Part shown: piece by piece, positions 2,773 to 62,175 of the stretch
Numbering within the stretch: the first letter of the stretch is position 1
Layout of the letters: every line of letters starts with the position of its first letter
From: an uncultured Clostridia bacterium
GTDB lineage: Bacteria; Bacillota; Clostridia; Oscillospirales; Acutalibacteraceae
Length of the DNA stretch: 64,000 nucleotides
NCBI GenBank assembly: GCA_945874765.1
Contig: CAMCHQ010000001.1
Coordinates: forward strand, 62,001-126,000
Direction: 5' to 3'
Made by a program: the position numbers and the translations under genes
The notes under the pieces: generated by a model
Databases searched by the model: none
The model's input: the letters and a program-made list of their open reading frames with translations, nothing else
Told to the model about the DNA's origin: nothing

Positions 2773-3150
2773 ATGGAAAAGACAATTTTTGAGCAAATGG
2801 GCGGTACATACGAACAGCAGGGTGATTATCTTATCCCCTGTTTGAAATTACCCGCCGAAAAGGAAGAAAGATATATAGGTGTTTGGGGACAGCGACATTT
2901 GCGGTACATTCGCCAACATAGAAAAGTGTTATTTTCAACATTGCTAACAAGTGGCAAAATAAATACCTATCTTGCCGATGTTGAAGAACAGGCTCAAGAA
3001 CTTTTTGACCGTCTTATGAAGAAACGAGCAAAGCGTGAGGGTATTACCGAAAAGCTGAAAGCCGAAAACCCTATGTTATGGGTCGGTAGAATGAACGCTC
3101 TGCGAGATGCGGTCACGGAAACTGTCAATACAGAAATAATCTACATATAA
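2773..3150 (+). CDS. TnpV-like transposon-encoded protein
   Basis: MEKTIFEQMGGTYEQQGDYLIPCLKLPAEKE...GVWGQRHLRYIRQHRKVLFSTLLTSGKINTYLADVEEQAQELFDRL matches remembered TnpV-family architecture. Confidence 0.8.
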   Translation: MEKTIFEQMGGTYEQQGDYLIPCLKLPAEKEERYIGVWGQRHLRYIRQHRKVLFSTLLTSGKINTYLADVEEQAQELFDRLMKKRAKREGITEKLKAENPMLWVGRMNALRDAVTETVNTEIIYI

Positions 3151-3213: not shown

Positions 3214-3435
3214 TGTTCGTGTGTCGAAAACAGCCTGAATTAAGGCTTCTTTCTGCCCTAAATGTCTACTTCTTATTTGGATAATAAACGAGATGATATT
3301 CTTTATCGAGTAATGTTGATTAAAAAGAGACAATTGAAACATTAATAACAGCCAACATCTTATACGGCTCTGAAATATTCAAGCCATTTATTCGCAACTT
3401 CTTGCGAATAATAGAGATATTATTAATCAAAATAG

Positions 3436-3464
3436 TTGACAAAATGCTTATTTGGTTATATACT
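3436..3464 (+). promoter_or_regulatory. Promoter of the cargo operon
   Basis: TTGACA (3436-3441) - 17 bp - TATACT (3459-3464), upstream of an SD and the HTH gene. Confidence 0.6.
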
Positions 3465-3512
3465 ATAATAGTGTTAGTGAAATCATTTTCGTGCTTACAG
3501 GAGGTGCGTAGT

Positions 3513-3725
3513 TTGCGAGTAAGCTACAAAAAGCTATGGATACTACTGATTGAAAAAGAAATATCTCCTGCTACGCTACGCAAAGACCTTAATATTGCTA
3601 CTGGAACAATGACCAAGCTGAGGAGAAATGAAGAAGTTGCGCTTTCAGTTTTGTTAAGAATATGCGAATATCTTGACTGCAATATAGGCGATATTTGTGA
3701 TGCCGTAAAAACTAATGATGAATAA
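3513..3725 (+). CDS. Small helix-turn-helix (Cro/C1-type) transcriptional regulator
   Basis: TTG start at 3513 preceded by AGGAGG; LRVSYKKLWILLIEKEISPATLRKDLNIATGTMTKLRRNEEVALSVLLRICEYLDCNIGDICD is typical of the 70-aa YozG-like HTH family. Confidence 0.85.
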   Translation: MRVSYKKLWILLIEKEISPATLRKDLNIATGTMTKLRRNEEVALSVLLRICEYLDCNIGDICDAVKTNDE

Positions 3726-3769
3726 TGACTTGATTTGACAAAATCGTTATCAAGGGAGAAAACAGGGAT

Positions 3770-4621
3770 ATGGAAAGTAATAATCAAATACGTTTTTGTT
3801 CTTATTGCGGAACTAAACTAGATGATGGAGCGAGATTTTGCAAAGGATGTGGTAAGGCAGTCATACAGACCACTGAATCTACTCCAGAACACAACACAAT
3901 TAATGAACCTACTTATGAAACATTTTCCCATGAACCAAATACTGAAAGAAAAACAGTATATGAAGGTAATATACATAAATGCCCAAATTGCGGCGAAGTA
4001 TTACAAGCGTTTGTAACGCATTGCCCTGCGTGTGGGCACGAAATAAGGGATACTCACACTGCCAGTTCTGTCCGTGAATTTGCCGTAAAACTGGAGCGAA
4101 TAGAAGCTCAGAAAATGCCTGCTTTTGAAGAAAAAAAGTCTGTAATGAAAATGGTGTTCGGCAGGGATTTCAAAGATGAAGATGAAGCGGAAGAAGCAAG
4201 AGACCGATGGGAAGAACAAAAACATCAGGAAAAAGCAAATCTGATTATCAATTATTCTGTTCCCAATACAAAAGAAGATATTATGGAATTTATGCTACTT
4301 GCTTCTTCAAATATTGATGTAAAACATGGTACTGATGATGTGGTTACTAAAGCATGGATTTCAAAATTAGATCAGGTTTATGAGAAAGCAAGAATCTCTA
4401 TGGGAAACAGTTCTGATTTTGCACAGATTAAGAAAATTTACGACCAAAAGAAAAAGCAATTAAAAAATAAAAAAGTGCGAGGATTTCTTATTGGCGCAAG
4501 TTGTGTTGCTGGCTGGTTCTTCCTTTTAGGGCTTCTTTGGAATCCCGGAGCAACGATTGGCATTGCTATTGGCATATTTGTGCTAATAATTATCGGATAT
4601 ATTATATTCAAAAAAAGATAA
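3770..4621 (+). CDS. Double zinc-ribbon membrane protein
   Basis: N-terminal CSYCGTKLDDGARFCKGCG and CPNCGEVLQAFVTHCPACG zinc ribbons; two C-terminal TM segments. Confidence 0.85.
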   Translation: MESNNQIRFCSYCGTKLDDGARFCKGCGKAVIQTTESTPEHNTINEPTYETFSHEPNTERKTVYEGNIHKCPNCGEVLQAFVTHCPACGHEIRDTHTASSVREFAVKLERIEAQKMPAFEEKKSVMKMVFGRDFKDEDEAEEARDRWEEQKHQEKANLIINYSVPNTKEDIMEFMLLASSNIDVKHGTDDVVTKAWISKLDQVYEKARISMGNSSDFAQIKKIYDQKKKQLKNKKVRGFLIGASCVAGWFFLLGLLWNPGATIGIAIGIFVLIIIGYIIFKKR

Positions 4622-4652
4622 TATCTGAAATGACACAAAGGAGGATAATTAT

Positions 4653-5969
4653 ATGGCGCTGTTTGATAAGAATAAAAGAACAGGCGGATTTATGGATGAA
4701 ATCCGCTGTGATGAACCATCATATTTAATTTGGAAGTGGCATCCTTCCGGTTCAGAACTCGGTGAGAATAATCGCGAAAATGCTATTCGTTGGGGCTCAT
4801 CGCTAAGAGTAAAGGATGGTGAAGTTGCAGTATTTGTTTACAAGCAACCAAACGGGCAAATGCAGGATTTTATTGTTGGTCCTTATGACCAAATTATCAA
4901 AACGGAAAACTTTCCCGTACTTGCCAGCATTGTTGGATTAGCTTACGAAGGAGGAACACCTTTTCAAGCAGAAATATACTTTATTAACCTTGCTCAGATT
5001 GTTCAGACTAAATTTGCTGTACCCTATTTTGATGTGTATGATCCGAGGTTCTCAGATTTTGGCGTTCCGATTGCCGTTAGAGGAACTGTAAGTTTCAAGA
5101 TTAGCGATTACAGAGAGTTTATTAAACTTCATAGACTCAGTAGTTTTAATCTTGAGGATTTTCAGCATCAAATTCGTGATGCAGTGAGCCGTTATATTAA
5201 AGATACAGTTACCAATGCTCCTGCTGCTAACAATATACCTGTAATCCAAATAGAGAGTAAAACATCGCAGATTAATGACATCGTCGAGTATGATATAGCT
5301 GAAAGGTTAAGAGAAAACTTTGGTGTGAGTGTCTCCGGCATTGACATTGGAGCCATTGAAATCGACAAGTCTAGTGAAGGTTACAGGCAACTTATGGCAG
5401 TTACAAAGGACATTGCGGCTACAAGAATTCAAGCTGAAACAACTGACTATGTTGAGAGACTTCGCATTCAGAGAGAAGAAGGACAATACGCACAGCATAA
5501 GCAGACACAATCCGTTAATATAGGAGCTTTTCAAGTTGAAAAACAAGCAGAAGTGGGTGTCGCCGGTGCAAATGCTTTGGGACAGATGGGTGCTAACGAT
5601 GCTGGCAATGTTGATTTAGGCGGAAATGGTGTAGGGTTTAATCCTGCTGCAATGATGGCAGGTATGGCAGTTGGCGGAGCCGTGGGGCAGAATATCGCTG
5701 GAACCATGAACGGAATGATGTCCGGCATAAATCAACAGCAAGGCGTTGGTACTACCCCTCCTCCCGTTCCGATGATTTCATATCATGTTGCAGTAAACGG
5801 TCAAGCAACAGGTCCGTATGATATAAATACGCTATCACAGATGGCTATAAACGGGCAACTAACCGAAGGGACACTGGTATGGAAAAAAGGAATGACTGCG
5901 TGGAGTCGGGCTGATTCTATCGATGAACTTAAAGGATTATTTATCCCACCTATTCCACAAACAGAATAA
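4653..5969 (+). CDS. SPFH (Band 7)/YdjI-like protein with C-terminal GYF-like domain
   Basis: N-terminal SPFH-type region (KWHPSGSELGENNRENAIRWGSSLRVKDGEVAVFVYKQPNG...); C-terminal YHVAVNGQATGPYDINTLSQMAINGQLTEGTLVWKKGMTAWSRA is GYF_2-like. Confidence 0.87.
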   Translation: MALFDKNKRTGGFMDEIRCDEPSYLIWKWHPSGSELGENNRENAIRWGSSLRVKDGEVAVFVYKQPNGQMQDFIVGPYDQIIKTENFPVLASIVGLAYEGGTPFQAEIYFINLAQIVQTKFAVPYFDVYDPRFSDFGVPIAVRGTVSFKISDYREFIKLHRLSSFNLEDFQHQIRDAVSRYIKDTVTNAPAANNIPVIQIESKTSQINDIVEYDIAERLRENFGVSVSGIDIGAIEIDKSSEGYRQLMAVTKDIAATRIQAETTDYVERLRIQREEGQYAQHKQTQSVNIGAFQVEKQAEVGVAGANALGQMGANDAGNVDLGGNGVGFNPAAMMAGMAVGGAVGQNIAGTMNGMMSGINQQQGVGTTPPPVPMISYHVAVNGQATGPYDINTLSQMAINGQLTEGTLVWKKGMTAWSRADSIDELKGLFIPPIPQTE

Positions 5970-5999
5970 AGGTTATTGAAATTAATGGAGGATAAGAGA

Positions 6000-8039
6000 A
6001 TGAAATGTTCAAAATGTGGTGCCGAATTAAGCGATGATACGAGGTTTTGTTCCTATTGCGGAGAAAAGATTGAAGTAAATTCTTCTGACTCTGTTGATAA
6101 TGGTGTAAGTGAATCAGATCACGGAGAAACAAATAATCAAACGACATTTTTGCCTGAAAAAGAAAAGAAATCCATTGCTGATAACATTAAAGATCGTGGC
6201 GTAGGCTTTTGGAACAAGCTATCTTCTTACGAAAAGGTAACAACCGTTGCATTGATAGTATTCACACTTATGTGTCTTATTGCATTTATTGCGGGAAAAA
6301 TTTTTGCAGGAATTATTGCATTATTGTCCATTGCACTTACAGTTGTTGCTCTTCTTATGAAAAAGCAGATTATAAAAACCCCTAAAAGTTGGATACATAT
6401 TGTTGCTCTTGCGATTGCAATAGTTCTGATAGTACCTTATTTTTCGCTGTTTGGAGGGAACGGAAATAGTTCCACTGATAAAGGAGAAAAATTTTCTTGG
6501 TCAAATTTGATACTCGGAGAAGTTATCCCCCAACCAAAATCTGATGTTGGCAAGATAATTACAAATACCGAAAGTAGTCTCTCGGTGTATATCTACAAAA
6601 CATCAACAGATGATTTCTATGATTATATAAAAGCTTGTAAGGATAAAGGATTTAATGTTGACGCAGAGCAATTAACATCTTCCTTTAATGCTTACAACGA
6701 ATCGGGATATAAATTATCTTTGTATTATGCAGAGAGCAACAAGGAAATGCACATTGGCGTGGACGCTCCTGTTGTTTATGGTGAACTTAAGTGGTCAGAC
6801 AACGGTCTCGGAAAACTTTTGCCGACACCAGTCTCAAAAGTCGGAGAAGTTAAAAAAGATGATGACAAAGGTTTTGAAGCGATTGTTGCTGAAACATCCA
6901 TTGAAGATTTCAAAGCCTATGCAAAACTATGTTTAGATAAAGGCTTTTCGGTAGATATAAAAGAGTCTGATAAATCCTTTGATGCCAAAAATGCAGATGG
7001 GTATAAGCTATCTGTTAAATACATCGGCAATAATGTAATGTCTATTTCCATTGATGAACCTGAATATCAAGTTACTGTCGAAGTCGAATGTGTAGAAAAT
7101 TGGATATTCAGCAAATATGATGTAGATGTTTATGTGGATGACTCTTTAGAAGGTACTCTCTCGCACGGAACTACAGACACATATTCTGTTACTCTTACAA
7201 AAGGAACTTATACCATTAAGTTTGTAAGTGCGGAAGATGATGGTGTAACCGGAACGGTAAAAATAGACATTTCAAAGGATGAAGATATCAAACTCAAGAT
7301 TTCTTGTTATAGCGACAAAATCAGCGTAGAAACCATCAGTGGCACATTGAGCAATAATAACGAGAATACTGAATCCTCAACTTCCGAATCATCCAAAATC
7401 ACTGTTACAATGAGCGAAGATGATTTCAAAGGTATGAATTATAAGGATGCTGAGAAAAAATTCCGAGAAATGGGCTTTACAACATTTGAGTATAAAACTG
7501 TCGATACGGAGAATGAATCAGCCGCAGATACGATTTGCTATATTGAGATAACCGAGTTCTTTATTGGTGATTCTGATTTCGTAAAGGGCGACAAATTTGA
7601 TGCTGATTCAACTATAACCTTCTACTCCTATAAGTATGAAGAACCAGAGGCTCCAAAACCTGTTTTCTACTCAACCAATGATTACGAAACTGCCAAAAAA
7701 GGAAATACAGGTGTATTTTCTTATCGTGATAGAAGCGGTTCATACGACATTTATTGGATTATAGATTTTAACGAGGGATATGTTTATTACTTTACCGATG
7801 GTAATGGTGATACCACCTGTGATAAAGTTAAAATAGTTTCCGGAGATTTGAACGATAAAATAATTATTACTTATCACGATGGCAGTGATGTTTGGTCTTA
7901 TGGTTTACATTTCAAATATGTTAATCATCCTGAAACTCTAATTATGCAGGATAACGATGGATTTGAATACAAGTATTCCACAACAGATTTAGACGATGCA
8001 TTGAAACTTAGAAATACGAAAACCATTCACGAATACTAA
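6000..8039 (+). CDS. Zinc-ribbon/TM protein with duplicated DUF6591-like domains
   Basis: ATG at 6000 with GGAGG upstream; CSKCGAELSDDTRFCSYCGEKI zinc ribbon, TM segments, then two similar repeats (LGEVIPQPKSDVGK... and LGKLLPTPVSKVGE...). Confidence 0.75.
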   Translation: MKCSKCGAELSDDTRFCSYCGEKIEVNSSDSVDNGVSESDHGETNNQTTFLPEKEKKSIADNIKDRGVGFWNKLSSYEKVTTVALIVFTLMCLIAFIAGKIFAGIIALLSIALTVVALLMKKQIIKTPKSWIHIVALAIAIVLIVPYFSLFGGNGNSSTDKGEKFSWSNLILGEVIPQPKSDVGKIITNTESSLSVYIYKTSTDDFYDYIKACKDKGFNVDAEQLTSSFNAYNESGYKLSLYYAESNKEMHIGVDAPVVYGELKWSDNGLGKLLPTPVSKVGEVKKDDDKGFEAIVAETSIEDFKAYAKLCLDKGFSVDIKESDKSFDAKNADGYKLSVKYIGNNVMSISIDEPEYQVTVEVECVENWIFSKYDVDVYVDDSLEGTLSHGTTDTYSVTLTKGTYTIKFVSAEDDGVTGTVKIDISKDEDIKLKISCYSDKISVETISGTLSNNNENTESSTSESSKITVTMSEDDFKGMNYKDAEKKFREMGFTTFEYKTVDTENESAADTICYIEITEFFIGDSDFVKGDKFDADSTITFYSYKYEEPEAPKPVFYSTNDYETAKKGNTGVFSYRDRSGSYDIYWIIDFNEGYVYYFTDGNGDTTCDKVKIVSGDLNDKIIITYHDGSDVWSYGLHFKYVNHPETLIMQDNDGFEYKYSTTDLDDALKLRNTKTIHEY

Positions 8040-8045
8040 TAATAG

Positions 8046-8085
8046 AAGGCTATGTAATCCAACTCGGGCTACATAGCCTTTTTAA
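8046..8085 (+). terminator. Rho-independent terminator of the cargo operon
   Basis: AAGGCTATGTA(8046-8056)/TACATAGCCTT(8070-8080) perfect 11-bp repeat followed by Ts. Confidence 0.85.
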
Positions 8086-8716: not shown

Positions 8717-9112
8717 ATGAATGAAGTTAAGAACAAAAATCTGTTTATCCGTGTAAGTCAAAAAGAGAAAAATATCATTGAATTAAATGCTGAAAAGTGC
8801 GGGCTTTCCGTGTCGGAATATCTCCGCCAGCGTGCGTTGGGATATATGCCGAGAGCAGTTTTGCCCGAAGTATTCTTCTCTTTTAATGACAAGTTAGATG
8901 AACTCTGCGTTGTTTGTGAGGGCAAAATCTCACCTGATACGGAAGAAAAAATCATCTCACTCATTGAAAGTATTACCGAAGAACTGATACTGCCGAAGCG
9001 TGAAAGGCTGGTGCAATCGGGGCCCCCGCAAAGCCTGCTTTGTGGGGAAAAGGAGCATCCACGGATTGTTGAGTTTTCGACGCTTGCGGCGGAAACGATG
9101 AAAGGAGTGTGA
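8717..9112 (+). CDS. mobC: MobC-like relaxosome accessory protein (ribbon-helix-helix)
   Basis: NKNLFIRVSQKEKNIIELNAEKCGLSVSEYLRQRALG is a typical MobC N-terminus; directly precedes a relaxase. Confidence 0.82.
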   Translation: MNEVKNKNLFIRVSQKEKNIIELNAEKCGLSVSEYLRQRALGYMPRAVLPEVFFSFNDKLDELCVVCEGKISPDTEEKIISLIESITEELILPKRERLVQSGPPQSLLCGEKEHPRIVEFSTLAAETMKGV

Positions 9113-9118
9113 TGCGAC

Positions 9119-10471
9119 GTGGCTACAACCGGATTTTGGCCTGTCAAAAGCAGGCTCAAAGAAGTAATTGATTATGCGGAAAACCCCGACAAGACCATAG
9201 ATAAAAAGTATGTGGACACCGACCTATACGCCGCCTTGCAGTATGCGGCAGATGATAAGAAAACGGATGAGCGTATGTATGTGTCAGGTATCAACTGCAA
9301 TGCAAAACGAGCCTATGAGCGTATGACGGCAACTAAAAAACGCTTTGGCAAAACAGGCGGTAATGTAGCGTATCACGGGTATCAGAGCTTTCAGACGGGT
9401 GAGGTTACACCTGAGGAAGCGCACAAAATCGGTATGGAAACCGCAAGGCGTATGTGGGGCGGGAATTACGAAATTGTTGTTACCACACACCTTAATACAG
9501 ATAATATCCATAACCATTTTGTTGTTAATTCCGTATCCTTTAAGACCGGCAGAAAGTTTGAAAACCATATTTCCGACCATTACAGACTTCGTGAAATTTC
9601 CGATGCCGTATGTTTGGATTACGGTAAAAGTGTACTTAAAGAAGCAAACTTTTACGGTGGCGATAAAAAAGAATACTGGCTGAAAAAGAAAGGCAATATG
9701 ACCCACCGAGAACTATTGAAATCGGATATTGATACCGCCATTTCACAGTCAACCAATTTTAAAGCCTTTGAAATTCGCCTAAAGGATATGGGATATATCA
9801 TACAGCGTGGCGAGGAATATGCCCACTATTCCGTCAAAGCACCAAGCTGGCAGAGGGCAATCCGTTTAGACAGACTGGGAAAGGAATACTCTCCCTCCGC
9901 TATTCGTGAAAGGCTGCTTGATAATCAGCGCCATATCGGTTATGTTCCGTTTCAAAAGCCTAAGTATGCACCGCTTATTATGCTTGAAATCGAATACCGA
10001 AAGGCAAAGAAGATGGACGGCGTACAGGTAATGTTCCAACTTGTGATTGAGCTCTGCAAATTGATTACAGGTAATAATATTACGCCGCAGACTCCGAGAC
10101 CGCTGTCTCCCGAAATGAGGCAAGAGGTTGTAAAACTTGATAAAACGCTGAAAGAATACAAGTTCCTATGTGAGAATCATATAGATTCCCCGCAGGAGCT
10201 TGTTTCTTTTATCAGCGAAAAGCGCGAACAGATAGATGTTTTAGAAAAAGAAAGGCAGTCTGTCTATAACCGCAACCGTCATAAGAAAAGCAAGGAGATA
10301 AACGCACAGGCAAGGGAAATTACAGCACAAATCAAACCTTTGCGTGAAGAACTATCCGTAGCAAAAGCGGTTCTTGCAAAAATACCGAAACTAAAAGAAC
10401 TGCTTGAAATCGAAAGGCAGACAGAAAATGATGCCATCTACAAAACGAAAGAAAGAGGTTATACACGATGA
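9119..10471 (+). CDS. Relaxase/mobilization nuclease (MobA/VirD2-like, MOBP)
   Basis: MATTGFWPVKSRLKEVIDYAENPDKT...; TTHLNTDNIHNHFVVNSVSFKTGRKF carries the HxDxxHxH-like relaxase histidine motif; GTG start. Confidence 0.93.
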   Translation: MATTGFWPVKSRLKEVIDYAENPDKTIDKKYVDTDLYAALQYAADDKKTDERMYVSGINCNAKRAYERMTATKKRFGKTGGNVAYHGYQSFQTGEVTPEEAHKIGMETARRMWGGNYEIVVTTHLNTDNIHNHFVVNSVSFKTGRKFENHISDHYRLREISDAVCLDYGKSVLKEANFYGGDKKEYWLKKKGNMTHRELLKSDIDTAISQSTNFKAFEIRLKDMGYIIQRGEEYAHYSVKAPSWQRAIRLDRLGKEYSPSAIRERLLDNQRHIGYVPFQKPKYAPLIMLEIEYRKAKKMDGVQVMFQLVIELCKLITGNNITPQTPRPLSPEMRQEVVKLDKTLKEYKFLCENHIDSPQELVSFISEKREQIDVLEKERQSVYNRNRHKKSKEINAQAREITAQIKPLREELSVAKAVLAKIPKLKELLEIERQTENDAIYKTKERGYTR

Positions 10472-11376
10472 AAAATACAGAACAATTAGTAAATGAAATC
10501 TTATCCCCACCGAAGAAAAAGGCGGCGAACATACCCATTGAAAAGCTCCATACCTTTAACGGACATCCGTTCAAAGTCCTTGATAACGAGGAAATGGAGA
10601 TTTTAATCGAAAGTATCCGTCAGCAAGGAATACTCTCTCCGCTTATTGTAAGACCGATGGAAAACAAACCCGATGAATATGAGGTCATATCGGGACACCG
10701 AAGGTTGTACGCTTCTGTGAAAGCAGGGCTTACGGAAGTACCTGCTTTAATCTATCCCCTTGACCGCAATGCGGCAATTATTGCGGTGGTGGACAGTAAT
10801 ATCCACAGAGAACAGATACTGCCCAGCGAAAAAGCCTTTGCGTACAAAATGAAAATGGAAGCTATGAAAGAACAAGGTAAAAGAACGGATTTAACTTTAT
10901 CGCAAGTTGCGACAAAGTCGGATACCGCCGCAGCTATCGGCAAGGCACAGGGCGAAAGCCGTGACCAAGTATTCCGATATATCCGTCTTACTAACCTTAT
11001 TCCAGAAATCCTTCAAAAAGTTGACGAGGGTGCTATCGCTTTAAGTCCTGCCGTTGAGCTGTCATACTTATCCGAAGAACAGCAAAAAGTATTGCTTGAC
11101 GCTATGAGCCTGAACGACTGTACTCCCTCCCACGCCCAAAGTATCCGTATGAAAAAATCGGCACAGCAAGGCACTCTTTCTTCGGACAGTATTTATGAAA
11201 TTATGTCAGAGGAAAAAGCCAATCAGACTGAGCATATCAGTTTTAAAGTGCAGGATTTGCAGGCTTTCTTCCCAAAAAACTACACTCAAAAGCAGATGAC
11301 CGAAACCATCTTAAAATTGCTTTATGACTATCACAGAAAAAACGAACGAAAGCGTAACAGCCGTGACGAAAGGTAA
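10468..11376 (+). CDS. ParB/Spo0J-like N-terminal-domain protein
   Basis: IPIEKLHTFNGHPFKVLDNEEMEILIESIRQQGILSPLIVRP...YEVISGHRRLYASVKAGLTEVPALI; start overlaps the relaxase stop. Confidence 0.9.
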   Translation: MKNTEQLVNEILSPPKKKAANIPIEKLHTFNGHPFKVLDNEEMEILIESIRQQGILSPLIVRPMENKPDEYEVISGHRRLYASVKAGLTEVPALIYPLDRNAAIIAVVDSNIHREQILPSEKAFAYKMKMEAMKEQGKRTDLTLSQVATKSDTAAAIGKAQGESRDQVFRYIRLTNLIPEILQKVDEGAIALSPAVELSYLSEEQQKVLLDAMSLNDCTPSHAQSIRMKKSAQQGTLSSDSIYEIMSEEKANQTEHISFKVQDLQAFFPKNYTQKQMTETILKLLYDYHRKNERKRNSRDER

Positions 11377-11750: not shown

Positions 11751-13451
11751 ATGACAACAGCAAACAATATTAAAGGGCAGACAGAAGAAAAAATCACAGC
11801 GTTGTACTGTAGATTATCGGTTGATGATGACAAGAAAGACGCCGAGTCAAATTCCATAACCAATCAAAAGCAAATACTGTTAGATTACTGCCAAAAGCAG
11901 GGCTTTACAAACACGATGTTTTTTGTAGATGACGGTATTTCCGGCACAAGCTTTGAGCGAGGCGGCTTTCAGCAGATGCAGAAAATGGTGGAGGAAGGCA
12001 AAATATGCAGAGTTATCGTTAAAGACCTCTCCCGTTTCGGTCGAGAGATGGTTGAAGCAGGCAGACTGACTCAAATTGTATATCCTTCCTTGGATGTTAC
12101 CTTTATCTCACTCCACGAGAATGTAAACAGCACTACCGGCGAGGGTATGGAAATGCTGCCGTTTTACAACATATTCAACGAGTGGTATGCGGCACAAACC
12201 TCTAAGAAAATCCGTGCGGTGTGGCAGTCGAAAGCGGAAAACGGAAAGCGTGTCTCACCGACCGTTCCTTTTGGATATGTGAAAGACCCTAATGATAAAG
12301 AGAAATGGCTGATTGACGAGCCAGCCGCCGAAGTGGTACGCAAAATCTACGCTTTGTGTCTTGCAGGACGAGGTCCGTCACAGATTGCAAGACAGTTGGA
12401 GAAAGAGAGAATCCTTGTCCCCTCTGCCTACTATGAATCTGTCGGCAGAAGCCACGCACAGAAAGTACCAACTAATCCGTATAGTTGGGATCAGGCAACG
12501 GTTGTAGGTATTCTTGAAAACCGACAGTATACGGGTTGTGCGGTGAACTTCAAAAGCACTACGGTCAGTTACAAGGTTCACAAGAAAATTCATAATGCCA
12601 AAGAAGATTACCAAATCATACCGAATATGCAGGAGCCGATAATATCCGAAGAACAATGGCTGAGGGTGCAGGAACTTCGCAAACACCGCCGCAGACCGAC
12701 AGCAACCGGAAGAACAAGCCTGTTTTCGGGATTGGTATATTGCCCAGATTGCGGCGCAAAACTGCATTTCTGTGCTGCAAAGAGTCTGAAACGCAATCAG
12801 GAATTTTGGAGATGTTCCAACTACAAGGATGGCAGAGGGACTTGTCAAATCCACTATATCCGTGACGTTGTGCTTGAAAGAATAGTGCTTGAAGCAATCA
12901 GCAGCTTAGCGGATTTTGTGAAATGCCACGAGCCGGTATTTCTGTATATGCTTGCAAAGAAAACCAATGCTATGCGACAGAAAGAACACAAAAGGCTGGA
13001 GCAGGCGGTGGAACAAGGCACAAAGAGAATCGCCGAAATTGACAGGTTGATTGAAAAGGTTTTCGAGCAAAACGCAAGCGGCATACTCTCCGATGAACGC
13101 TTTTCTAAAATGCTTCAAAGCTATGAGAAAGAGCAAAAAGCATTAACACAGGAGGTTGCCGACAGCAGACAGACCTTAGAGGAAGCCAAGCAGAAAGCAA
13201 CGGATTTAAGGCTTTTACTCCGTACTCTGCGTGAAATGACCGAAATAAACGAACTCACGCCGACAATTGTAAATTCTCTGATTGAGCGTATTGAAGTCCA
13301 TAATAACGACAAATCAAGCGGTCATTGTTATGTGAAGGTAGATATTTACTTTACTGCGGTTGGTATGATAGATATTCCAACCGAACAGGAAATTCTTGCT
13401 ATGATGGAAGAAATACGGGCAAATCCGCAGGACTTCCGCTTTGTAGCATAA
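11751..13451 (+). CDS. Large serine recombinase (TnpX-like, resolvase/recombinase/zinc-ribbon, DUF4368-type C-terminus)
   Basis: ALYCRLSVDDDKKDAESNSITNQKQILLDYCQKQGF, GISGTSFERGGFQQM, VKDLSRFGREMVEAG, CPDCGAKLHFCAAKSLKRNQEFWRCSNYKDGRGTC. Confidence 0.96.
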   Translation: MTTANNIKGQTEEKITALYCRLSVDDDKKDAESNSITNQKQILLDYCQKQGFTNTMFFVDDGISGTSFERGGFQQMQKMVEEGKICRVIVKDLSRFGREMVEAGRLTQIVYPSLDVTFISLHENVNSTTGEGMEMLPFYNIFNEWYAAQTSKKIRAVWQSKAENGKRVSPTVPFGYVKDPNDKEKWLIDEPAAEVVRKIYALCLAGRGPSQIARQLEKERILVPSAYYESVGRSHAQKVPTNPYSWDQATVVGILENRQYTGCAVNFKSTTVSYKVHKKIHNAKEDYQIIPNMQEPIISEEQWLRVQELRKHRRRPTATGRTSLFSGLVYCPDCGAKLHFCAAKSLKRNQEFWRCSNYKDGRGTCQIHYIRDVVLERIVLEAISSLADFVKCHEPVFLYMLAKKTNAMRQKEHKRLEQAVEQGTKRIAEIDRLIEKVFEQNASGILSDERFSKMLQSYEKEQKALTQEVADSRQTLEEAKQKATDLRLLLRTLREMTEINELTPTIVNSLIERIEVHNNDKSSGHCYVKVDIYFTAVGMIDIPTEQEILAMMEEIRANPQDFRFVA

Positions 13452-13498: not shown

Positions 13499-14233
13499 CT
13501 ACATAAAAACTTCCTTATCTGGCGTTGCCAAATGCCGACTGTTTTTTATTTTAAGCGTCTTTAAATATGCCTTATCCTCGTCTGATACTCTAAGGGATTC
13601 GCATATTTTTTGAATAGTTTTATTATGAACCCAAGGCTGTAATTTTTTGCCTTTAATGATACCGTCCACCTTATCCTTATAGTCAACATAAGCAGTTGCC
13701 AAAGTCCACGCAATTGCCATATTGATATAATATTCATCTCTTTTTATTGACAAAAGGATATTTAACACATTATCTATATATTCATCTTTTAAATAATAAT
13801 CGAGCATCATAACACACATAAAGCGCACTTCATACTCACTGCCGTTTTTGTATTTAAGAATATAATTTAAAACTTCATCAATATTTTTTAAAGTAAACTT
13901 AAATGTAGCCGCACAGCAATCGCAGATACCCCAATTATCAATAAGCGGTACAAATTCGTCAAGAAGAGAAAGTCTTTGCTCAATGCTTAAATTCTTATTA
14001 TATTCGATAACCATACCCTTTATCATTTTTTCTTCATAATAAAAGGTATCAACAAATGCATTTTCTTTAGCCGCCGCTTTTGCAATTTTCCTGATATTCG
14101 GAAGTCTTACGCCTATTACCTTATCTCTTTCAATATTCGGAATAAGTTTTGAATGAAAATCTCCGTATTTTTCATCTTGATTTTTAAATAATTCTTCTCT
14201 TACGTTCATAATATCACCGAGGATATTATACAT
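13499..14233 (-). CDS. DNA alkylation repair protein (AlkD-like); last about 11 codons supplied by the mobile element
   Basis: NVREELFKNQDEKYGDFHSKLIPNI...DRVIGVRLPNIRKIAK-type AlkD-like protein; coding sequence crosses attR. Confidence 0.85.
   Translation of the reverse strand: MYNILGDIMNVREELFKNQDEKYGDFHSKLIPNIERDKVIGVRLPNIRKIAKAAAKENAFVDTFYYEEKMIKGMVIEYNKNLSIEQRLSLLDEFVPLIDNWGICDCCAATFKFTLKNIDEVLNYILKYKNGSEYEVRFMCVMMLDYYLKDEYIDNVLNILLSIKRDEYYINMAIAWTLATAYVDYKDKVDGIIKGKKLQPWVHNKTIQKICESLRVSDEDKAYLKTLKIKNSRHLATPDKEVFM
13509..13545. repeat. attR / right terminal inverted repeat
   Basis: ACTTCCTTATCTGGCGTTGC...GCCGACTGTTTT, inverted copy of the left end. Confidence 0.75.
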
Positions 14234-61350: not shown

Positions 61351-62175
61351 TTATTTAATGTAATTATCATATATGTACTTAACTATCGAATCATTGTTTG
61401 AACAAGCGGTATTTTTAGTTATTGATTTAATTTCATCACTTGCATTTCCTGCCGCAACAGGTAAGCCGGCAAATTCAAACATAGTCAAATCGTTTTTACT
61501 GTCCCCTGCCGCAATAACCTCATCACTTTTAGCGCCGATTAACTCGCTTAATTTTGAAAGTGCCGAGCCTTTTGAAACATTTGAGGCAGTGATTTCAATA
61601 TTATTACTCATTGAAGTAGTAAAAATAATATTATCAAATTGCTTTAATTTTTCAAAGCAGTCTTGTCTTTCGTCTTCGTTTTTGAAAAATATATTTAAAA
61701 GTTCCGTTTTATCGAATAAATCAACAGCACTTGACAAATCATCAATACCTATTCTCGTTTTATCAATTACGTCAATGTAATTTTCATCGATTTTAAAGTA
61801 TTGATATGATTTAAAATTAAGTTTTGATTTATCGGTTTTCGGCTCTTTATTTTCATAAAATTCAATCATTGTATCATATGATGACAAAAGATTATAAAGC
61901 CCGGTTAAAGTCGGCATATCTATATAATGCTCATATATGTTTTTGTTTTCTTTTTTATCAAATATAACCGAGCCGTCAGAATAGATAATATATCTAATGC
62001 TCTTTAATTCACGCAAAACCTGAGGTATCTCATAAAAAGTTCTGCCTGTGCAAAGTGCAAATTCTATCCCGTCATCAGTCATTTGTTCAATTGCGTCAAT
62101 ATTATCAGTTGACACATTTGAATTATCATCAAGAAGCGTACCGTCAAGGTCACACGCAAAAAGCTTATAATTCAT
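61351..62175 (-). CDS. Cof-type HAD-IIB family phosphatase
   Basis: YKLFACDLDGTLLDDNSNVS...FALCTGRTFYEIPQ; VIAAGDSKNDLTMFEFAGLPVAAGNASDEIKSI. Confidence 0.95.
   Translation of the reverse strand: MNYKLFACDLDGTLLDDNSNVSTDNIDAIEQMTDDGIEFALCTGRTFYEIPQVLRELKSIRYIIYSDGSVIFDKKENKNIYEHYIDMPTLTGLYNLLSSYDTMIEFYENKEPKTDKSKLNFKSYQYFKIDENYIDVIDKTRIGIDDLSSAVDLFDKTELLNIFFKNEDERQDCFEKLKQFDNIIFTTSMSNNIEITASNVSKGSALSKLSELIGAKSDEVIAAGDSKNDLTMFEFAGLPVAAGNASDEIKSITKNTACSNNDSIVKYIYDNYIK

Follow-up and report, generated by a model that had tools for sequence, protein, structure and literature searches.

What does a small mobilisable element gain from carrying, rather than a resistance gene, an operon built around a putative membrane scaffold? 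The question is posed by an 11,133-bp Tn4451-like element in the window analysed here, the whole 64,000-nucleotide stretch (positions 62,001 to 126,000 of contig CAMCHQ010000001.1, assembly GCA_945874765.1) from an uncultured Clostridia bacterium of the family Acutalibacteraceae with a gut-type genome. The cargo of the element comprises genes for a helix-turn-helix (HTH) regulator and for three proteins, termed A, B, and C, of which B contains an SPFH domain. To our knowledge, bacterial SPFH proteins are widespread and their tasks are mostly unknown. This one appears to belong to an undescribed, swappable envelope-surveillance module rather than to a household gene set, and the explanation that we favour, with confidence that is about evenly balanced, is that the operon encodes a mobile, PspA-independent, membrane-recruited SPFH platform that would sense envelope damage and protect against phage, toxin, or envelope attack. 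The anatomy and regulation of the module are well supported: comparison of sequences documents its domain content and operon boundaries, an HTH–A–B core, an operator-like site, swapping of the third gene, a patchy spread, and location in a mobilisable element. Its protective role is the part that we infer.

All four genes lie on the forward strand, bounded by a consensus promoter on one side and a strong terminator on the other, and the Pfam matches of all four products exceed the curated cut-offs. The sigma-70-type promoter (TTGACA-17-TATACT, 3436–3464) agrees with the consensus at 11 of 12 positions and has a 17-nt spacer, and the intrinsic terminator (8044–8082) folds at -20.4 kcal/mol (z = -5.9 relative to shuffled sequences). 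The first gene (3513–3725) encodes a VanU-like regulator of about 70 residues and of Cro/C1 type (HTH_26, 1.6e-18), most likely translated from the TTG at 3513, which has an AGGAGG-type ribosome-binding site ahead of it. Protein A (3770–4621), the putative adaptor, combines two zinc ribbons (Zn_ribbon_3/DZR, 1.1e-11), a three-helix "PNTKED" domain, and a C-terminal transmembrane (TM) hairpin. The candidate scaffold B (4653–5969) consists of an SPFH domain (Band_7_1, 8.5e-24), a linker, a PPPVP motif, a GYF_2 domain (9.7e-18), and a PPIP tail. Protein C (5985–8039, with ATG 6000 as an alternative to the ATG at 5985), seemingly a variable partner, contains a zinc ribbon, three TM helices, two copies of DUF6591 (2.8e-51), a beta-sandwich, a PASTA-like repeat, and a C-terminal beta domain. 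A preliminary description of the window had already recognised these co-directional HTH, zinc-ribbon/TM, SPFH–GYF, and zinc-ribbon/TM/DUF6591 genes, the YdjI type of the SPFH protein, and the bounding promoter and strong terminator, and all of these assignments stand.

The same description treated A, B, and C as one module, but their conservation as a trio did not survive comparison with relatives. A scan of one genome per species yielded 49 loci encoding B relatives. A adjoins B in 43 of them, normally with a gap of no more than about 50 nt between the end of A and B, and in three of the six exceptions B is cut at a contig end. DUF6591, by comparison, was found in 27 of 346 genomes of the order, just four of which (G000, G310, G479, and G568) also showed B; because it is not tied to B, the trio is rejected as the conserved unit. 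As judged from these gene neighbourhoods, the unit that is kept is HTH, A, and B, together with the operator-like site considered below, with C as one of a number of exchangeable third genes. In five loci (L012, L013, L020, L028, and L039), DUF6591 or a PASTA-like repeat is fused to the A-type protein itself. Short cysteine-containing proteins of 72–81 residues, of unknown kind, lie between HTH and A at L026, L043, and L066.

The third slot, defined as genes within 150 nt 3' of B, is filled in varied ways across unrelated bacteria, and several of the occupants are established or suspected anti-phage genes. Some copies have C-type zinc-ribbon proteins there, and several have no linked third gene at all. 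At L005, the slot holds a TIR, SLATT-like, TIR series (ThsB, 3e-64; PDC-M50A, 2.8e-49; ThsB, 1.1e-121), in which "SLATT-like" is a label given by eye and PDC-M50A is the model that was matched. The slot contains DUF4062 at L001, a YpsA/SLOG protein at L043, and SUKH plus Tox-GHH at L010; at L012, DUF4062 lies about 300 nt 3' of B. A 178-residue family with CCGDTS and GQ(T/G)HAWLV motifs and no Pfam match, possibly of cysteine-peptidase-like fold, occupies the slot at L016 (3242–3778) and L068 (3484–4020). At L082, HTH and a remnant of A stand beside a GmrSD-type gene (GmrSD_N) that carries an internal stop. Separately, L025 contains an alpha-helical open reading frame that looks HEPN-like by eye and has no Pfam match.

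The TIR/SLATT-like, DUF4062, SLOG, and GmrSD neighbours make the anti-phage or envelope-protection role suggested in the preliminary description more plausible. They could even point to a true anti-phage system, with A–B as sensor or platform, the third gene as swappable effector, and C as the membrane effector of the window copy. The strong ThsB and PDC-M50 matches at L005, the DUF4062 and SLOG third genes, GmrSD beside the decayed copy at L082, and methyltransferases in the equivalent slot of a related element backbone all lean that way. Nevertheless, A, B, and C have no PADLOC match, the outer domains of C look sensory or binding rather than toxic, several copies lack a third gene, and TIR/SLATT pairs can work without A–B; a dedicated anti-phage system is, in our estimate, an unlikely account of the operon. 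Also unlikely is the broader proposition of a new modular immune platform, in which HTH–A–B would form a constant sensor core with pluggable partners (DUF6591 surface sensors, TIR/SLATT, DUF4062, SLOG, or toxin/SUKH) that has spread among Firmicutes and beyond, partly by means of small mobilisable elements.

Regulation of the operon appears to be local. A 16-bp inverted repeat with a 4-bp asymmetric spacer (TCGCAA-CTTC-TTGCGA, 3392–3407) ends 28 bp before the -35 box and constitutes a predicted operator. Across modules, the site upstream of the HTH gene occurs in this form or with the spacer flipped (TCGCAA-GAAG-TTGCGA); it is present with at most two mismatches in 25 of 32 HTH modules, lies 27–28 bp from the -35 box in 29 of the 32, and was not found in modules that lack the HTH gene. 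The repeat is probably the private operator of the HTH protein, because the exact site is present only once in the 2.27-Mb genome of the window; when up to two mismatches are allowed, that genome contains five sites, compared with four for a reversed control pattern. In all five carriers that have a site with at most one mismatch, it is the sole such match in the genome and is located at the module. Additionally, a diverged HTH (52% identity) in another context at L104 has a one-mismatch version, TCGCAATAAGTTGCGA, 76 nt upstream. These observations support the HTH protein as the binder. The fixed upstream position suggests that the protein would activate its own operon rather than repress it.

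The HTH itself tracks the module closely. Copies with 82–94% identity nearly always adjoin A–B, and among 248 genomes of the order those at about 87% identity or more adjoin A (a remnant of A in G511, locus L082), with the remaining family members, at 74% identity or less, located elsewhere. This module-specific form accompanies 25 of the 49 B loci. Its closest NCBIfam relative is VanU, the HTH protein of the vanG operon (2.9e-19), at 69 bits and so below the curated cut-off of 150, and the genes around the present HTH differ from those of the vanG operon.

Proteins A and B have features that would suit an adaptor and a scaffold. The zinc ribbons of A have eight conserved cysteines, and an invariant-rich block, PNTKEDIxEFMxLAxSN ... 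AWxxKxEQxYxKA, is predicted to form a helical bundle ahead of the TM hairpin; optional extras among homologues are an N-terminal PH-like domain or additional C-terminal domains, and the homologue at L043 matches Vps36_ESCRT-II (7.3e-6). The SPFH domain of B scores 84.8 bits against PF13421 (Band_7_1; curated cut-off, 24), a model that also detects a Bacillus subtilis protein, presumably the PspA partner YdjI. The order of SPFH domain, Gly/Ala/Met-rich linker, PPPIP, GYF, and PPIP tail is kept even in a phage-borne copy of B. GYF domains bind proline peptides, so the flanking PPPIP and PPIP peptides are likely to be ligands of B's own GYF domain. A sequence search of solved structures with B and C gave nothing useful, and PHROGs and PADLOC searches of A, B, and C returned only zinc-ribbon and other weak matches. 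Among relatives of B, a Massiliimalia timonensis SPFH gene (L030:10001–13960) is apparently interrupted by an IS21-like transposase pair, and distant loci in Bacteroidota- and spirochaete-type genomes (L040, L041, L042, L045, and L048) carry an additional, stand-alone GYF gene behind B, most with a small multi-TM gene nearby.

The module is sparse, found in 1–3% of relatives: B occurs in 3 of 300 genomes of the family and in 12 of 395 of the order. B is also 70–78% identical across orders, reaching Streptococcus sanguinis and Gardnerella. This combination of sparse distribution and cross-order identity indicates that A–B is an accessory pair spread by horizontal transfer rather than part of a household set. 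The module also occurs away from the element in the window, at ordinary chromosomal sites. In S. sanguinis SK355 (L004), A–B is located between mutS and mutL without HTH, and another copy (L003) adjoins metF and has no effector gene. A phage origin of the genes was mostly rejected: a single IMG/VR contig (IMGVR_UViG_3300013426_000183; L187/L188) carries A–B, no operator-like site was found on it, and the gene neighbourhood of a GenBank "phage" match (MT835670.1) is that of a bacterial genome (L053 and L073). The IMG/VR contig also contains guanylate kinase, MazG, and exonuclease genes, and the C-terminal hairpin of its A looks TM2-type.

These chromosomal copies bear on another account, namely that the module is an ordinary accessory envelope-stress response, YdjGHI-like without PspA, that hitchhikes on a mobilisable element and has no role in conflict. 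Membership of B in the Band_7_1 family and the effector-free copies in unremarkable spots, between mutS and mutL and by metF, fit this account, which we regard as possible, if on the unlikely side. It sits less well with the very sparse, horizontally moved distribution, the repeated association with conflict-type genes, and the lack of PspA in most carriers. PspA (PF04012) has no match in the genome of the window and is missing at E ≤ 0.001 from 11 of 13 carriers, with a match above the cut-off in one of the 13. A Psp system is rejected because this genome and most carriers lack PspA, and the Psp link drawn in the preliminary description is weakened by this absence.

The element itself would make the window copy mobilisable. 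It is bounded by 18-bp inverted ends, the left at 2394–2411 (AACGCCACATAAGGAAGT, forward strand; 17 of 18 positions identical to the right end) and the right at 13509–13526 (AACGCCAGATAAGGAAGT, reverse strand); in a shuffle control, two matches at no more than three mismatches arose in 1 of 100 shuffles. Within these ends, all on the forward strand, are TnpV immediately 5' of the cargo (2773–3150; PF14198, 6.3e-43), a NikA-like mobilisation protein (8717–9112; PF21983, 6.6e-15), a MobA/VirD2-type relaxase (9119–10471; PF03432, 2e-40), a ParB-like protein (10468–11376; PF02195, 2.1e-18), and a large serine recombinase (11751–13451; PF00239/PF07508/PF14287). By its gene content, with large serine recombinase, TnpV, and mobilisation genes inside inverted ends, this is a Tn4451-like mobilisable transposon. 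The HTH–A–B–C operon is its sole cargo, with nothing else recognisable between the end of TnpV at 3150 and the start of NikA at 8717, and the backbone genes and inverted ends bear out the earlier view of the module as the whole cargo of an element without a resistance gene. The right end falls within the 3' end of a gene on the minus strand (13499–14233) named AlkD-like by eye, with no family search behind the name; an empty insertion site was not found, this flanking gene being too diverged within the genus. A related backbone in genome G090 (L145, contig C17) encodes a relaxase that is 88% identical over the half compared. Its slot equivalent to the window operon (3388–7767) holds four genes of unknown kind and a pair of DNA methyltransferases, one of N6_N4_Mtase type and one of Eco57I/N6_Mtase type, which may amount to a new restriction-modification-like system.

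Placement of the operon between TnpV and the mobilisation genes raises the prospect of a transfer-support function, in which it would shield the donor or recipient membrane during conjugation or exclude a second copy or incoming phage. The copies at L005 and L016, which directly follow TnpV, and the phage contig with A–B are in keeping with such a function. Most copies, however, are not beside relaxase genes, and the operon comes with a promoter, terminator, and predicted operator of its own and also occurs outside mobilisable elements, making transfer support distinctly improbable.

The favoured explanation, a membrane-recruited SPFH platform, can be cast as a mechanism. The HTH protein would bind the inverted repeat, whose centre lies about 36 bp upstream of the -35 box, and activate the operon from this fixed position, and the products would assemble into a scaffold at the cytoplasmic side of the cell membrane. 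A would be anchored by its hairpin, leaving its zinc ribbons and three-helix domain exposed to the cytoplasm, and would recruit B, much as YdjG/YdjH recruit YdjI. B may then form an SPFH ring or patch, closed or tightened as each GYF domain binds the PPPIP or PPIP peptide of its own or a neighbouring subunit. In the window copy, C would span the membrane, with its zinc ribbon in the cytoplasm and a large portion outside (DUF6591 and PASTA-like domains), and would sense the condition of the wall or surface and link it to the A–B platform; in other copies, a TIR/SLATT, DUF4062, SLOG, or other protein would be the partner. The selective benefit would be protection of host and element against phage, bacteriocin, or antibiotic attack on the envelope.

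Several observations weigh against this explanation. Many copies lack a linked third gene and are surrounded by household genes, which leaves room for a plain stress function without a defence role, and the varied neighbours may reflect nothing more than insertion into island-rich sites. B, at about 70% conservation across orders, changes more slowly than do many proteins of defence systems. Conservation alone underlies the operator prediction, and position the choice of activation over repression. Structure comparison yielded no fold significantly related to A. With regard to a possible ESCRT-linked adaptor, which would combine MIT-like three-helix and GLUE/PH-like domains, the MIT-like matches of A were weak and non-significant (2w2u, TMt 0.69, E 3.3), and the Vps36_ESCRT-II match came from the homologue at L043. 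For C, predicted to combine three TM helices with a row of outer beta domains, the search gave nothing meaningful, being dominated by spurious multi-domain beta matches with root-mean-square deviations above 19. If the explanation holds, the module would represent a self-contained, self-regulated, mobile SPFH system without PspA, with a candidate operator, a clear adaptor, and a partner gene swapped between copies. It gives a way to ask whether SPFH scaffolds serve as membrane sensors in bacterial immunity, and operator, HTH, and A–B together provide a sequence signature for gathering candidate effectors.

The module partly resembles several known systems. The backbone genes and layout of the element are those of Tn4451-like transposons with TnpV and a large serine recombinase, and the cargo is what differs. 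No PADLOC model matches HTH, A, B, or C of the window, which puts A–B outside the catalogued defence systems, and no description of the module was found in the papers searched; both results are consistent with the earlier suggestion of an undescribed system. Proteins matching Thoeris and PDC-M50 (TIR plus SLATT-like) fill the third slot of relative L005 only, and such genes are absent from the window operon. Among characterised systems, YdjGHI of B. subtilis comes closest. Its SPFH protein, YdjI, depends on YdjG/H to localise to the membrane and has been tied to envelope stress (PMC8581546); it requires zinc-ribbon and further membrane partners to get there and has a link to PspA (PMC8581546, PMC11237479). 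As in A–B, pspA-ydjGHI places an SPFH protein of the same Pfam family next to a double-zinc-ribbon membrane protein, and by analogy membrane recruitment by a partner is likely to be a shared mechanism. The window operon, in contrast, encodes neither PspA nor YdjH, and the host and most carriers lack PspA. At its end B has GYF and PPIP rather than a zinc ribbon, and A has the PNTKED helical domain where a YpeB/NTF2-like domain is reported for YdjG. Finally, sigma-W control in B. subtilis contrasts with a dedicated HTH and putative operator here, in a module that is both mobile and sparse.

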